From: an uncultured Clostridia bacterium
GTDB lineage: Bacteria > Bacillota > Clostridia > Oscillospirales > Ruminococcaceae
Length of the DNA stretch: 64,000 bases
NCBI GenBank assembly: GCA_947624375.1
Contig: CANQKD010000012.1
Location: 1-64,000, forward strand
Direction: 5' to 3'
Part shown: in pieces, positions 6,785 to 60,023 of the stretch
How positions within the stretch are numbered: position 1 is the stretch's first letter
Layout of the letters: each line of letters starts with the position of its first letter
Made by a program: the position numbers and the translations under genes
Notes under the pieces: model-generated
The model's database searches: none
Seen by the model: only the letters and a program-made list of their open reading frames with translations
What the model was told of the DNA's origin: nothing

Positions 6785-6820
6785 AAAAATGCGGAAAAGC
6801 ACACAGGTACTCCTCCGCAT
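6785..6820 (-). terminator. Riboswitch-linked intrinsic terminator before thiS
   Basis: On the minus strand ATGCGGA pairs with TCCGCAT across a 19-base loop and is followed by TTTTT. It lies between the TPP aptamer and the thiS start, so ligand binding can plausibly decide between termination and read-through. Premature termination is inferred from position and shape. A mutually exclusive antiterminator was not worked out. Confidence 0.8.
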
Positions 6821-6906
6821 AATACTCTCTACGTTGGCATTACCCAAATCAGATAAGGGGTCGGGAGCACAACTCCCCTCTCAGCCTGTCAAGCAAGCTC
6901 CCCCAA
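6821..6906 (-). promoter_or_regulatory. TPP riboswitch aptamer
   Basis: The minus-strand leader contains the two signature blocks of the THI element: GGCTGAGA in the P2/P3 arm, and ACCCCTTATCTGATTTGG followed by GTAATGCCAACGTAGAGA in the P4/P5 arm. The 5' edge begins with GGGGGAGC. It sits about 12 bases after the predicted transcription start and directly before a terminator hairpin and thiS. This is the expected arrangement for thiamine pyrophosphate repression of the whole operon. The exact P1 ends are approximate. Confidence 0.95.
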
Positions 6907-6924
6907 CATATTGTACTATTATAT

Positions 6925-11332: not shown

Positions 11333-11342
11333 GCATATATTG

Positions 11343-12000
11343 TGTTTATATTTGCGCTTACGCGCACCCTGCGGAGCTGTGCAACGCTCCACAATGCTCA
11401 AAACTTTAAATTCCTGTCAAGAAACTAAAAGTTTTCGGTCAAGCCTTTTTCAAAAGGCTTGCAGGGTGTGGGGCAGAGCCCCACAAAACACAACGTGCGC
11501 TCTGCAAGAGGTGAATTAGAAAACAGTTCGGTGAACTGTTTTCTAAGAGGGCAGCGGTCGCAAGCGACCGCGGGAAGAATTATTTCGCCCCCAAAATTAA
11601 AAGCGAAATAATTCTTCGAGCGTTCCCAACGGGAACGCTGCTCCTGCAAGAGAGAGCCTCTCCTTTGAGAAGCCATATCTCTTTTTTCTGCGCGCGCTTG
11701 CGTGCGCAATAACTTTGTAAAAAACTTGCACTTTACTTGTGAAGAAATTTTCGCATTGTACGGCGTTCCATAATGGAACGCGGAAAGAGAGCGTTGCGCT
11801 ACAACTAGGGGAGGCTCAGCTTTTAGAAGCAAGAATATTAGAAGCAAGAGGCAAGAAATTGCTTTTTACAGTTTAGCACAAATTTTTCAAAACGCTCGTC
11901 TTGCCTCTTGCCTCTAACTCTAAACCGCAGATATGGCAAACTGTCGCAAAGCCTTAAAAACAGCTTCTTACTTCTAACTTCTCACTTCTAACCTCTGATA
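11343..12000 (+). repeat. Composite noncoding repeat, copy A (right end missing)
   Basis: No credible gene here. The stretch holds repeat modules shared with 49816-50643 and 54257-54746. In order: a GCGCTTACGCGCA block (11343-11391); the end module with hairpins CAAGCCTTTT/AAAAGGCTTG and TGTGGGGC/GCCCCACA (11417-11501); a hairpin run beginning GTGAATT (11511-11640) with stems at 11518-11544, near 11555-11572 and near 11577-11614; a GGCGTTCC/GGAACGC hairpin (11762-11781) leading into GAGGCTCAGC; then a heptamer-rich module (11838-12000). The inverted right-hand end module present in the other two copies is absent. It occupies the gap between two convergent genes. Confidence 0.85.
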
Positions 12001-12002
12001 GG

Positions 12003-12058
12003 GAAGAATCCTCGCAGAGGATTCTTCGGCACTTGACCGACACTTGTGGCGGTCAAGT
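12003..12058 (-). terminator. Twin hairpins downstream of the P-type ATPase-like gene
   Basis: Two perfect inverted repeats follow the gene ending at 12062: ACTTGACCG/CGGTCAAGT (12031-12058) and an 11-bp stem GAAGAATCCTC/GAGGATTCTTC (12003-12027). Neither has a good U-tract, so termination is likely but not canonical. They adjoin repeat copy A and may belong to it. Confidence 0.5.
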
Positions 12059-25640: not shown

Positions 25641-25673
25641 GTAAATTGAGGGAATTCATTTCCCTCAATTTAC
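25641..25673 (-). terminator. Perfect 14-bp hairpin between rplQ and the ABC-F gene
   Basis: GTAAATTGAGGGAA pairs perfectly with TTCCCTCAATTTAC around a 5-base loop. On the minus strand TTTATTTTT follows, so it can terminate transcripts coming from the ribosomal operon side before the ABC-F promoter. Confidence 0.65.
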
Positions 25674-25812
25674 ACCACTATCGGCGCAGCTATAATAATG
25701 AGCTTCTATAAGCGAATTATTATAGCGTGAGGGTAACGGAGCCGATGCAGGAAGGGGCACACGGGGGAACAAGTTCGGGGTTTCCCCGTGAAGCGGTAAC
25801 AATTTTCGGCGC
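25674..25812. ncRNA. Unassigned structured element
   Basis: A compact set of nested inverted repeats lies between two terminator-like hairpins. ATCGGC pairs with GCCGAT (outer stem, about 25680/25742) around CTATAATAAT/ATTATTATAG; this is followed by CACGGGG/CCCCGTG enclosing an AAC/GTT pairing. No reading frame with a ribosome site fits. It does not match any riboswitch, SRP, RNase P, 6S or tmRNA signature I know. The strand is undecided because all stems are symmetric. It could be a small RNA or a remnant of a mobile-element control region. Confidence 0.4.
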
Positions 25813-41762: not shown

Positions 41763-42102
41763 TTTAATTCGCCTCCTTAAAAACTTTGAAAATTTGTTGG
41801 GGGCAAGACCTTGTTTTACGAGCCTTAAAGCCCGTCAGATCTTTTACACTACTCCATGTGTTTCGCTTGTAAGCCGAAAAAATATCCGAAAACCGTGAAT
41901 TGTTTTCGGGGCTTACACAGCGCACACATAAAGCCCGTGCTTTAGCGTAAAAGCAGCAATGCCGCCATCGCAAGAAACGCAAAAGCCTTGATGTGTAAAT
42001 ATCGGCCGCCCGGTTTAAAATCGGACATACTCTGCGGAAATTCCCCGACTCTTTGGTCGGCCACCTCCCGCTTCATCGCATATCTTTGCCGCACACCATA
42101 CA
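41763..42102 (-). promoter_or_regulatory. Long leader of the S10 operon
   Basis: About 340 bases separate the predicted transcription start (near 42102) from rpsJ. The leader contains inverted repeats such as CCGAC/GTCGG (near 42045-42060) and a possible 44-codon reading frame (42076-41942, beginning MKREVADQRVGEF) that lacks a good ribosome site. A leader this long before a ribosomal operon suggests post-initiation control; the mechanism cannot be read from sequence alone. Confidence 0.5.
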
Positions 42103-49797: not shown

Positions 49798-49815
49798 ATT
49801 TTTTCTGCCTTTTGT

Positions 49816-50643
49816 TTTTTATATTTGCGCTTACGCGCACCCTGCGGAGCTGTTCAACGCTCCAATTTTATTTTGGTTATCTTCACATTTTGAGTAAGCT
49901 ACCACGTTGCGCAATTAAACTGTATTTTTTCAGCGAGTGCGTTAAATCTCAAAAGTTGTAAGCCCTGTCAAGAAAGGAAAAGTTTTCGATCGACCCTTTT
50001 TCAAAAGGGTCGCAGGGGTACGGGGGCGGCGCCCCCGAAAACGCGATAGGCGCTCTGCTGCTAGAGGTTAGAAGCGAGAAGTTAGAAGTAAGAAGCTGTT
50101 TTTAAGGCTTTGCGGCAGTTTGCCATATCTGCGATTTAGATTTAGAGGCAAGAGGCAAGACGAGCGTTTTGAAAAATTTGTGATAAACTATAAAAAGCAA
50201 TTTCTTGCCTCTTGCTTCTCGTTATCTTGCCTCTAATAGCTGAGCCTCCCCTAGTTGTAGCGCAACGCTCTCTTTCCGCGTTCTCTCAGAGAACGCCGTA
50301 CAATGTGAAAAATCTATAACAAGTAAAACTCGCGAAAGTATCAGCACACTCAAAATGAAAAGAAAACCGAACTAAAGAGGGCGTTGAACGCGCTCCTGCG
50401 CCGCGTGTAAGCGCAAACTTTAACAAAGCTTTTGCGCACGCAAGCGCGCGCAGGAAAGAAAGTCAAGGTCTTTTCATAGGAAAATCCCTCTCTTGCAGGG
50501 ATTTTCCTCTTGAAAAACAATCCACCGGATTGTTTTTCAATTCACCTTTTTCGGAGCGCATTCCGTATTGTGGGGCTCCGCCCCACGCCCCGCGCCCCTT
50601 TTGAAAAAGGGTCGATCGAAAACTTTTAGTTTCCTGACAAGAT
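49816..50643. repeat. Composite noncoding repeat, copy B (full length, inverted ends)
   Basis: An 830-base gap without a credible gene. A GCGCTTACGCGCA block (49816-49862) and about 100 less characteristic bases precede the element proper, about 49965-50641. Its left end (CTGTCAAGAAAGGAAAAG, then hairpin CGACCCTTTT/AAAAGGGTCG, then CGGGGGC/GCCCCCG) recurs inverted at the right end (50560-50641). Between them, read on the minus strand, come the GTGAATT hairpin module (about 50560-50405), the GGCGTTCT/AGAACGC hairpin (50297-50277) and the heptamer-rich module (50240-50061), in the same order as copy A. The right end stops two bases before the GH32 stop codon. Confidence 0.88.
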
Positions 50644-52044
50644 TTAAAAGTTTTGCGTACTGTGGAACGATGATGCGTTCATTGTGTCTTGGAGGCTAAA
50701 CAGTTTCCCATTTACCCCCGTAACCGCCAGCGAAAACTCCTCTTCTTCGGGGAAAAACCTCGTCGATACCACCGCTTCACCGCCGTTTAAATATATCTCC
50801 ACCGCCGTCGTGTCAAACAGCGCGCGTATGCTCCGGCAGTTTTCCAGCAAAGTCTTGCGGCTCGTTCTTCCGCCGCTCGCCCTCACGTCAAAATGCTCCA
50901 GCAAAAACACTCCGCCGTCAAAGCTCAGCCGAAGCGCGTTTCCCAGCGTTATGCAAAACTTTTCCTGCGTGTATGCGCTTATCTCAAACGGCAGGCGCAC
51001 ATTATAAACACCTGTGCTATTTATATGATAACACTCTTTTCGCAGTTTTTCAAGTTCTTTTATAGGAATTCGGCAAATTTTTCCGTTTTTCACCACCAGC
51101 TCGCACGGCACAGAAAGACAATGCTGCCTCTCAAACCCCTCGGCGTATGACGTATATCCGCAGTCTGTCATGCCCAGCCAGCCTATCATTATCCGCCGCC
51201 CGTCAGGAGACAAAAACGTCTGCGGCGCGTAAAAATCAAACCCCGTGTCCCATTCGGTAAAGCCAAAAGGTGTTATGTCATCTGTAAAAAAGTACCCCGA
51301 CTGATACATATTGCAAAAGCGGCTGTCACAGTGTATAAGCCCCTGCGGACATACGCTCAGCACCTCTTTGCCGCCCAGCTCAAACAGGTCGGGGCATTCC
51401 CACATATAGCCGAAATATTCCTGCGTTTCTATCCGCGATGAATACCGCCACTTCACGCCGTCATCACTTTCGTATATCAGAGCGCAGCCCGTGTCCTCGG
51501 CAGTGCGCCCACCCAGTATCATTTTGTATACGCCGCCCTGCCGCCATACTTTCGGGTCGCGTACATGGCAGGTCATTCCCTCGGGAAAATCAGCGTTCGT
51601 CATAAGCAGCCGCTTGCCCTCAAACACCTGCCCGTCCGCGCTGTGAACGCAAAGAACGTTTTGCTCTCTGCCTCGTGTGATGTAGTCATAGTCGCCCTTG
51701 TGCATAACGTTTCCCGTGTAGTATAAATACATCTCGCCGTCTTTTTCTATCGCACTGCCCGAGTATGCCCCGTCACGGTCGTATCGGCAGGCAGGGCGCA
51801 CAGCTATGCCGTCATACCGCCAGTTTATCATGTCCTCGCTCGAGTAATGCCCCCAGCATCGCGGCGTTTCACCTTCGGGGCTTTTCGGCGAATACTGAAA
51901 AAACACATGGTATCTCCCTGCAAAATAGCACAGCCCGTTGGGGTCGTTGAGCCACCCGTCAGGCGGTTCTAAGTGAAAACAAAGTCTACGCTCTCTCATG
52001 CTGTCATACGCCTCGTTACGCCGAAACGTATCTCCTTTCGCCAA
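50644..52044 (-). CDS. Glycoside hydrolase family 32 (sucrose-6-phosphate hydrolase/fructanase type)
   Basis: 466-residue beta-fructosidase. The nucleophile motif is WLNDPNG near residue 31, the transition-state motif HVRDPKV near 160, and the acid-base motif WECPDLF near 215, followed by the C-terminal beta-sandwich. No signal peptide, so it should act on sugar phosphates or short fructans in the cytoplasm; PTS genes nearby fit sucrose-6-phosphate. The start is unsettled: TTG 52044 has no ribosome site, while ATG 51999 has GAGG 11 bases upstream but leaves little sequence before the first motif. Its stop codon lies in sequence resembling the flank of the neighbouring repeat. Confidence 0.9.
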   Translation of the reverse strand: MAKGDTFRRNEAYDSMRERRLCFHLEPPDGWLNDPNGLCYFAGRYHVFFQYSPKSPEGETPRCWGHYSSEDMINWRYDGIAVRPACRYDRDGAYSGSAIEKDGEMYLYYTGNVMHKGDYDYITRGREQNVLCVHSADGQVFEGKRLLMTNADFPEGMTCHVRDPKVWRQGGVYKMILGGRTAEDTGCALIYESDDGVKWRYSSRIETQEYFGYMWECPDLFELGGKEVLSVCPQGLIHCDSRFCNMYQSGYFFTDDITPFGFTEWDTGFDFYAPQTFLSPDGRRIMIGWLGMTDCGYTSYAEGFERQHCLSVPCELVVKNGKICRIPIKELEKLRKECYHINSTGVYNVRLPFEISAYTQEKFCITLGNALRLSFDGGVFLLEHFDVRASGGRTSRKTLLENCRSIRALFDTTAVEIYLNGGEAVVSTRFFPEEEEFSLAVTGVNGKLFSLQDTMNASSFHSTQNF

Positions 52045-54253: not shown

Positions 54254-54256
54254 TTT

Positions 54257-54746
54257 ATTGTTTGCGCTTACGCGCAGCGCAGGAGCGCACACACTGACCG
54301 CCATAAATGTCGGACAAGTGCAGAAAAAAGCCCCATGTACTTCGGTTATCCCCTCATTTTGAGTATACCAATACTTTTGCACGTTTAACGTGTTGGGATT
54401 TTTTCACTTCGTTTGGCGTTCCAGAATGGAACGCGACAAAAGAGCTAAGGTCTTCTCAAAGGAGAGGCTCACCTTTGAGAAGCAAGAAAACGAGAAGCAA
54501 GAGGCAAGAAATTGCTTTTTTCAGTTTATTACAAATTTTTCAAAACGCGTATCTTGCCTCTTGCCTCTAAATCTAAACCGCAGGAGTGACAAGTTTGCAC
54601 AAAGACAGAAAAAGACTTTTCTAACATCTAACTTCTCACCTCTAACCTCTAGCAGCGGAGCGCACGCTGTATTTGTGGGGCGCTGCCCCACACCCCGCAA
54701 GCCTTTTGAAAAAGGCTTGACCGAAAACTTCTTCTTTCTTGACAGG
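54257..54746 (+). repeat. Composite noncoding repeat, copy C (left end missing)
   Basis: No gene here. A TTTGCGCTTACGCGCA block (54257-54288) precedes about 120 unrelated bases, then the GGCGTTCC/GGAACGC hairpin (54414-54433) leading into GAGGCTC, the heptamer-rich module (54490-54650) and an end module on the minus strand (54657-54746) with TGTGGGGC/GCCCCACA and CAAGCCTTTT/AAAAGGCTTG. The left end and GTGAATT module seen in copies A and B are absent. It fills the space between the SPFH cluster and the rimP promoter. Confidence 0.85.
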
Positions 54747-54797
54747 TTCTTAAACTTTAGCGCAAAGAAAGTTTTTAAATAAATTTTCAAAAACCCC

Positions 54798-57512: not shown

Positions 57513-60023
57513 ATGGCAGCAAAGGCAGTCAAAAAATATAAAGTAAGCGATCTGGCTAAAGATATATGTGTCAGCAGCAATGAAGTCATTCAGCTTCTTG
57601 CAAACGCGTTCGGTGACACAGGCAAGAAAACAGCTTCATCGCTGAGCGACGAGGAGATAAACTATGTCCTCGAGTATTATACACAAAAAACACAGGTAAC
57701 AGGTTTTGAAGAATATTTCGCAGCAAAAACAACTTCCAAAAAGCCTGCGGAAAAGAAAGCTTCACCCAAAAAGAAAGAGCAGGAAAAGGCTCAGGAAAAG
57801 CCCAAGGCGGAAGAAAAAACAGAAAAGGCAGATAAGGCAGATAAGGCAGAAAAGACGGAACAGACCGAAAAGTCCGAAAAGACGGACAAGAAAACCGAGA
57901 AGCCTGCCGCTCCCGCGCCTAAGCAGAAGCCCAGAAAGGAAGTCGCCAAAAAGAAGAATTCGGGTCAGAAAATACTTTTCGGCGGAAAGAGCGACGACAA
58001 CGCAAAGGGCTATACCGTTTCAGAGGGCACAAAGGACAGCAAGCGCAAGACCGTCGATACAAGGGGTTCGTATATAGAGCTCGATAAGTATAACGAAAGA
58101 TACGATAACCTTGCAGACAACAGAAACCACGGCGGCAGCAAGGATAACTTCACCAAAAAGCAGAAGATAACCCAGAGATCGCAGCAGTATAAAAAGCAGC
58201 AGCACTCTAAGAAAGAGATGGAAAGCGAAAAAGACCGTATGCGCAGACTGGAGCTTGAAAAGGCAAGAAAGCAGCAGCTCAAAGTTATGATACCCGACGA
58301 GATAGTTGTTTCAGAGCTTGCAGCAAGGCTGAAAGTTACCGCTACCGAGGTCATCAAAAAGCTTATGATGCTGGGCGTTATGGCATCTATAAATGAAGTT
58401 ATAGACTTCGATACCGCGGCGCTGGTTGCAGATGAAATGGGCGCTAAGTATGAAAGAGAAGTTCACGTTACCATTGAAGAGCGCCTTATAGTAGACGAGG
58501 AAGACAAGGAAGAAGACCTGGTTGAAAGATGCCCAGTTGTGGTAGTTATGGGTCACGTTGACCACGGCAAGACCTCAATTCTTGACAGGATACGCCATGC
58601 AAATGTGGCAGACGGCGAGGCAGGCGGTATAACACAGCATATCGGTGCGTATCAGGTAAAGGTGAACGGCAAGGATATCACATTCCTCGATACCCCGGGT
58701 CACGAAGCGTTCACTTCAATGAGAGCAAGAGGCGCGAATATTACAGATATCGCAATACTTGTTGTAGCCGCCGATGACGGCATCATGCCGCAGACAGTTG
58801 AGTCTATCAACCACGCAAAGGCGGCAGGCGTTTCTATAATAGTTGCAATAAACAAAATGGATAAAGTCGGCGCAGACCCCGATAAGGTAAAGCAGGAACT
58901 TACCAAATACGACCTTGTTGTTGAAGACTGGGGCGGCGACGTTATAGCTGTTCCCGTATCTGCAAAAACAGGCGAGGGCATCGATGAGCTGCTTGAAAAT
59001 ATCCTGCTCGTGGCAGAGGTCAAAGAGCTCAAAGCCAACCCTAACAAGCTGGCAAAAGGTACTGTAGTTGAGGCAAGGCTGGATAAGGGCAAAGGTCCTG
59101 TCGCAACGGTGCTCGTGCAGAACGGTACACTGAATCTGGGCGATATAATAATAGCAGGCACAGCAGTGGGCAGAATAAGAACAATGACCAACGATAAAGG
59201 TCAGCAGGTAACAAAAGCAGGTCCTTCCTGCCCCGTTGAGATAACAGGTCTTGCAGAAACACCTGCCGCGGGCGATATATTCAACGCCGTTGCAGATGAA
59301 AAACTTGCAAGAGAGCTCGTTGAGCAGAGAAAGCATAAAGCCAAGGAAGAAGAGTTCAGTCAATATCAGAAAGTAACTCTTGATAACCTGTTCGCGCAGA
59401 TATCAGAGGGCGAGATAAAAGAGCTGCCTATCATAGTCAAAGCAGACGTTCAGGGCTCTGTTGAGGCTGTAAAGCAGTCGCTTGAAAAGCTCTCCAACGA
59501 AGAAGTAAGAGTAAAAGTTATACACGGCGGCGTGGGTGCAATATCCGAAAGCGACGTTATGCTTGCTTCTGCTTCAAACGCTCTGATAGTAGGCTTTAAC
59601 GTAAGACCCGACCCCGTTGCAAAAGAAAACGCAGATCACGACGGCGTTGACATAAGACTTTACAGGGTAATTTATGACGCTATTGAAGAGATAGAAAGCG
59701 CTATGAAAGGTATGCTCGCGCCCAAATTCCGCGAGAGCGATACAGCAAGAGTCGAAGTGCGCCAGGTATATAAAATTACAGGCGTGGGCAACGTTGCAGG
59801 CTCTTATGTACTCAGCGGCAAGATCGGCAGGAATGACCTTATCAGAGTTGTGCGTGACGGCATAGTCATAGCCGATGATAAGATGAGTTCTCTCAAACGT
59901 TTCAAAGACGACGTGAAAGAAGTCGCGGCAGGCTATGAGTGCGGCATAACTCTTGAAAAGTTTACCGATATCAAAGAGGGCGACATATTCGAGGCTTATG
60001 TAATGGAGGAATATCAGGAATAA
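57513..60023 (+). CDS. infB: Translation initiation factor IF-2
   Basis: 836-residue GTPase that brings initiator tRNA to the ribosome. N-terminal IF2N domain (residues 1-55), a long lysine/glutamate-rich linker with DKAEK-type repeats (about 70-270), a second IF2N-like region ([27 protein letters not shown]), then the G domain: [22 protein letters not shown], followed by domains II to IV. AGAGAGGAG precedes ATG 57513. Its last base is shared with the rbfA start. Confidence 0.98.

Follow-up and report, generated by a model that had tools for sequence, protein, structure and literature searches.

Three repetitive islands lie in intergenic DNA of the 64-kb stretch analysed here (the window), at 11337-12041 (A, plus strand), 49813-50673 (B, minus strand) and 54254-54764 (C, plus strand, located before rimP), their full extent being defined by self-comparison. 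Island B is a complete copy, in which the minus strand reads T end, H, K, P, Q, G, S (the heptamer module) and T' end according to self-comparison and the module string. Comparison by blastn showed that copies A and C are antiparallel to copy B, with 11996-11732, 11722-11643 and 11550-11415 of A corresponding to B 99-363, 455-535 and 542-675, and 54745-54327 of C corresponding to B 1-421; A therefore retains its H-side end but not the heptamer-side one, and C keeps the heptamer-side end. The initial annotation had described A and C as partial versions of B, and each does lack one side, but their reverse orientation had been missed and the islands extend further out, through an additional outer module O, so that the repetitive stretches are larger than first described. 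The description of the copies as noncoding and intergenic held, the islands being intergenic module strings. The whole window has 14 perfect hairpins whose arms reach at least 9 bp, and 12 of them fall in islands A-C, which occupy 2.1 kb of the 64 kb. The remaining two adjoin at 25641-25726, outside the islands, and have arms of 14 bp and 11 bp. Elsewhere in the window, Rfam searches identified a TPP riboswitch at 6809-6914 and an S10-Clostridia ribosomal leader at 42003-42084, both on the minus strand, and a 9-bp repeat, AGAAAAGAC, occurs about nine times at 57812-57891 within an 836-aa reading frame downstream of nusA.

The inverted arms of copy B, 49950-50017 and 50588-50655, span 68 nt and are 85% complementary by self-comparison, so the terminal inverted repeats are real and longer than had been claimed. 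The heptamer-side T end (49949-50049, plus strand) was delimited by nhmmer, covariance model R1 and its hairpins, which a hairpin scan placed at 49991-50012 (CGACCCTTTTTCAAAAGGGTCG) and 50022-50036 (GGGGGCGGCGCCCCC); the H-side T end (50559-50657, minus strand) was delimited by nhmmer and model R1. Between them, on the minus strand, lie the heptamer (GARGYNA) module S (50060-50240; sequence reading, repeat families and module string), the G hairpin GCGTTCTCTCAGAGAACGC (50278-50296; repeat family F6), the P module with its GCGCACGCAAGCGCGCGC hairpin (50419-50462; repeat families I8 and F8/F12), the K hairpin (50478-50508), whose loop TGCAAGAGA is constant and whose stem is variable, and the H hairpin (50506-50546; hairpin scan and stem comparison), which has the form GGTGAATT-[stem]-GGT-[stem]-AAGAGG. 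The hairpins, the GTGAATT module, the GGCGTT hairpin and the heptamer module of this copy were found at the positions first assigned to them. The GARGYNA heptamers recall the short tandem heptamers of cyanobacteria. The outer module O (TTTGCGCTTACGCGC...; 49818-49864, plus strand) is 98% identical to 11345-11391 and belongs to repeat family F1 (also D8). A GH32 gene (50644-52044, minus strand) terminates within island B, the repeat supplying its final codons and stop; the end of the gene is shorter in relatives.

In island A, blastn, self-comparison and the module string gave the order O, H-side T end, H, X hairpins, P, G and heptamer module, all on the plus strand. Its T end (11398-11497; nhmmer, model R1 and hairpin scan) contains the hairpin CAAGCCTTTTTCAAAAGGCTTG at 11440-11461 and is followed by the H hairpin (11510-11550; hairpin scan), the X hairpins (11574-11639; repeat family F17), with perfect stems of 15 bp and 9 bp, the G hairpin GCGTTCCATAATGGAACGC (11763-11781), whose stem is unlike that of copy B and still pairs perfectly, and the heptamer module (11820-11996; blastn and module string). 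Island C, read by the same three approaches, consists of O, Q, G, heptamer module and T', the T-H-K side being absent; degenerate GARGYNA repeats occupy 54494-54655, and nhmmer and model R1 located the heptamer-side T end at 54664-54762 (minus strand).

The high copy number expected from three copies in one window was borne out by the genome: copy B retrieved 287 blastn pieces across its own 2.35-Mb genome, and R1, a covariance model built for the end module, detected at least 150 T ends. Statistics of pairing, modules and context were taken from stretches around matches (434 kb) and are biased towards islands; among these, neighbouring T ends at most 1.5 kb apart faced inward in 19 cases, outward in 1 and the same way in 7. 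The 19 inward pairs, 528-912 bp long, against a single outward pair indicate an element with two ends. The initial annotation had set its single-element model against modules in random order without common ends, and such an arrangement was not seen for the T-T' element. The common ends and inward pairing of that model stood; its modules proved more independent than proposed. The inner neighbour of a T end was H in 41 of 79 cases and the heptamer module in 30, the modules flanking a T pair on the outside did not match between its two sides, and modules were also present in further contexts, with both orientations and tandem arrangements represented. The islands, which were resolved into about 35 families of repeat segments, are thus mosaics and not one rigid element, with the proviso that most of the genomes are MAGs or short-read drafts, in which internal island joins could be partly artefactual. 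In one stretch (L048:6937-7797), a 260-bp multi-module unit stands in three tandem copies. In another, a GNAT-like acetyltransferase frame, recognised by eye (L034:7551-8060, minus strand), lies between inward T ends 1.5 kb apart, where it is possibly cargo, or else two islands lie side by side. Draft contigs often start or stop within islands (L031:1-229, L038:1-275, L050:3-896, L053:1-2401 and L055:18324-18994), which indicates that the repeats limit assembly.

The named relatives are MAGs of uncultured Clostridia or Oscillospiraceae, most of them from the gut of rabbits and ruminants. Sites A, B and C were compared in four close species (G005, G006, G007 and G009), whose proteins there are 92-99% identical. 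Three of them, G005, G007 and G009, carry islands at the same intergenic sites, with the same outer boundary and other modules (G009 being unreadable at site C). In G006, site B has 56 bp in place of the island, site A has about 100 bp, and site C is occupied by a stretch that is shorter and different; the empty orthologous sites that a mobile element should leave are represented by near-empty ones at A and B. More distant congeners have no or almost no islands. The recurrence of the same sites with other module strings and variable presence shows that the sites persist and their contents turn over. According to a simple ORF caller, islands were enriched in convergent gaps (21 of 34) and depleted in divergent ones (6 of 37). 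The orientation of the H strand relative to neighbouring genes showed no significant bias, the upstream gene being on the same strand in 42 of 70 cases.

Beyond the genus, the bacterial family was represented by 247 genomes from 126 genera; 40 of these genomes, belonging to 23 genera, carried T-like ends, and several genera allow a direct reading of the order T hairpin, second, third and G+C-rich hairpin, H and K. Plasmids, phages and viral contigs gave no match to the family, and Rfam gave none for the element, either in a gathering search of the window or for other-genus loci (E 0.5). At most of the loci read in genome G153 (L214, L215, L216, L257, L258 and L279), the related element immediately precedes a ribosome-binding site and start codon, and the strand with GGT and TGCAAGAGA runs in the direction of the gene, as in a 5' leader. 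Genome G252, of another genus, has elements of roughly 280 bp with ends CAGYYTGTCRRGAAA that have the T and third hairpins in common with the window's copies; H and K are unrecognisable in them, so that the kinship rests on the end motif and these two hairpins. Of the 14 G252 copies with both flanks, 10 are bracketed by locus-specific direct repeats, and the observed sum of these was reached in 0 of 20000 permutations. Nine of the ten repeats are hairpins resembling a local intrinsic terminator (L223, L228, L231-L233, L235, L236, L238 and L241), with stems identical or nearly so within a pair, loops that often differ, and T-rich tracts following the right-hand copies. The duplicated target is of variable length, about 20-37 bp. 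A search for a one-hairpin empty site for these duplications yielded none, the flanks of congener G195 being too diverged for intergenic alignment. We know of no element that duplicates an entire terminator on insertion, and literature searches for one that duplicates a whole terminator hairpin returned none.

Both arms of the hairpin stems change together. In H, which has the form of a hairpin with an A-tract, a short G+C stem and a T-tract, the flanks and the three-base loop are constant and the stem is variable: the 21 distinct stems of the window's genome gave 252 Watson-Crick cells, with no G.U and no other combination, and 40 distinct sequences, drawn from a number of genomes and genera, had 99.6% of their cells paired. 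Two-sided changes occurred at 9 of the 14 pairs of these 40 variants, with 78 doubly changed cells versus 18.7 in shuffles. The T hairpins showed compensatory changes like those of H, and the stem of K, always paired, comes in four to five widely differing sequences. RNAalifold, applied to ten cross-genus sequences, recovered the first two hairpins and no others, because the stems do not align. In counts of anchored H hairpins, used because a loose loop scan was swamped by background, imperfect pairs on the T-to-K strand comprised 4 G.U and 0 A.C in the core stem of A2; one A.C was seen elsewhere. The few wobbles in other genomes lean towards an RNA or single-stranded form, few independent events being involved, and their scarcity in the window's genome would fit a process at the DNA level, such as template-switch correction.

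Compensatory base changes, present in both H and T stems, are what a structured RNA should show, and the initial annotation had offered a family of large structured RNAs beside a MITE-like element. On this view the strand bearing the GGU and UGCAAGAGA loops would be transcribed and its fold conserved, the copies being RNA genes or mRNA leaders and 3' regions. Compensatory change in the stems is very strong, the loops stay constant while the stems change, the multi-hairpin order is common to several genera, G153 loci mostly sit directly 5' of ribosome-binding sites, and G.U prevails over A.C on the GGU-loop strand (4 versus 0), although this asymmetry is numerically too small to decide. However, compensatory changes are also known in non-autonomous palindromic DNA from REPINs (PMC3116915), so that compensation alone is no proof of RNA. 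The window's genome has no G.U among its 252 cells, no Rfam match exists, and inverted ends, shuffled modules and presence or absence at orthologous sites also count against RNA. The high copy number and common ends of the earlier two-way reading stood; the RNA option has covariation but no gene-orientation bias, and we consider it unlikely.

Target-site duplications, another mark expected of a mobile element, were absent from the window's genome and present in unusual form, as terminator-like hairpins, in G252. For 21 T pairs of the window's genome, direct repeats were no better than permuted ones (623 of 5000), and none were found at O ends; we accordingly do not assign the window's copies to the MITEs. 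No transposition would be required if homologous recombination and gene conversion alone had spread and homogenised old intergenic repeats, with template switching keeping the palindromes perfect. This would agree with the lack of target duplication in the window's genome, the unmatched outer modules of T pairs, the site and outer boundary shared by several species whose contents differ, the tandem module arrays (L048), and the perfectly paired stems with almost no wobble intermediates. The inward pairing of T ends within a tight length range, the locus-specific terminator duplications in G252 and the copies at many loci in 23 genera argue against it, and we regard an origin without transposition as improbable.

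Bidirectional terminators multiplied as insulators of convergent genes would explain the enrichment of islands between such genes and the A-tract, G+C stem and T-tract of H; any promoter-avoiding insertion, however, would show like enrichment, many hairpins lack T tracts, and islands also lie upstream of genes, as copy C does before rimP, making this explanation very unlikely. REP/BIME-type elements moved by a RAYT (Y1 tyrosine transposase) have similar workings (conserved end motifs, compensating hairpins and intergenic mosaics), but membership was rejected as scarcely credible, since Y1_Tnp (PF01797) is absent from the 99.99% complete genome, with five control genomes positive, and the units here are far larger than REPs.

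The family is, in our judgement, probably a non-coding, non-autonomous mobile element of MITE/BOX-like character, amplified here into a module mosaic. Such an element would consist of two inverted T ends (CTTGTCRRGAAA...AAAAGTTTT-hairpin) around an array of perfect hairpins, with the core order T-(third hairpin)-H-K common to several genera of the family. An enzyme supplied in trans would act on the T ends; the search for a transposase, which covered Y1_Tnp, identified no autonomous partner. Also counting against this reading are the lack of target duplications in the window's genome, the failure to find a one-hairpin empty site for the G252 copies and the absence of the family from phages, plasmids and viral contigs. 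In G252, a staggered cut at both feet of a hairpin would duplicate the local terminator hairpin. In the window's genus, huge amplification would have left occupied intergenic sites in place while modules were exchanged, inverted, lost and nested, presumably for the most part through recombination among the many copies. The stems would drift and yet stay palindromic, either by selection for a foldable single strand or by templated correction of imperfect palindromes. It is possible, if doubtful, that the family, widespread in gut Clostridia, homes to intrinsic terminators and duplicates the full hairpin, with an enzyme that would measure the folded hairpin and not a base count, and that its stems are continually rewritten, both arms together.

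The family works like BOX and like a MITE. The BOX elements of Streptococcus (boxA-boxBn-boxC, with boxD/E/F in S. suis) are 67-637 bp long and have few modules (PMC3049150). Constant outer and variable inner modules of composite intergenic repeats, stable predicted folds, a MITE-like character and clustering and nesting with other repeats are found here as in BOX, whereas about 35 segment families, inverted T ends and compensated stem rewriting set the present family apart; the likeness is one of architecture, and no sequence relation is claimed. With MITEs it has in common terminal inverted repeats (68-nt arms, 85%; 19 inward pairs), the absence of coding capacity, intergenic location, many copies, stable folds and, presumably, mobilisation in trans; its units are short, although 528-912 bp is long for a MITE. 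In contrast to the 7-9 bp direct repeats of QMITE2, an example from a MITE review (PMC10969869), the target in G252 is a whole terminator-like hairpin of about 20-37 bp, and the window's genome shows neither target-site duplication nor, in the search for Y1_Tnp, a parent IS. REPINs and BIMEs (PMC3116915, PMC2817692) are likewise palindromic intergenic mosaics with compensatory hairpin changes, but the present elements differ in ends and sizes and occur without a Y1/RAYT transposase. Literature searches yielded these analogues and no description of this family. In CRISPR, spacer integration by Cas1-Cas2 duplicates the repeat. The G252 copies offer an analogy to this, and no more, in that a whole palindromic repeat stands duplicated on either side of the insert; unlike CRISPR, they have neither array nor spacer, and the target is any local terminator.

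If the favoured reading of a MITE/BOX-like mobile element is true, hairpin-mosaic elements of a large and so far undescribed class shape intergenic DNA throughout a family of gut bacteria that are mostly uncultured and limit genome assemblies of these bacteria, and their insertion chemistry would copy a complete terminator hairpin. Stems with perfect changes in both arms provide a natural test of how palindrome symmetry is kept up.
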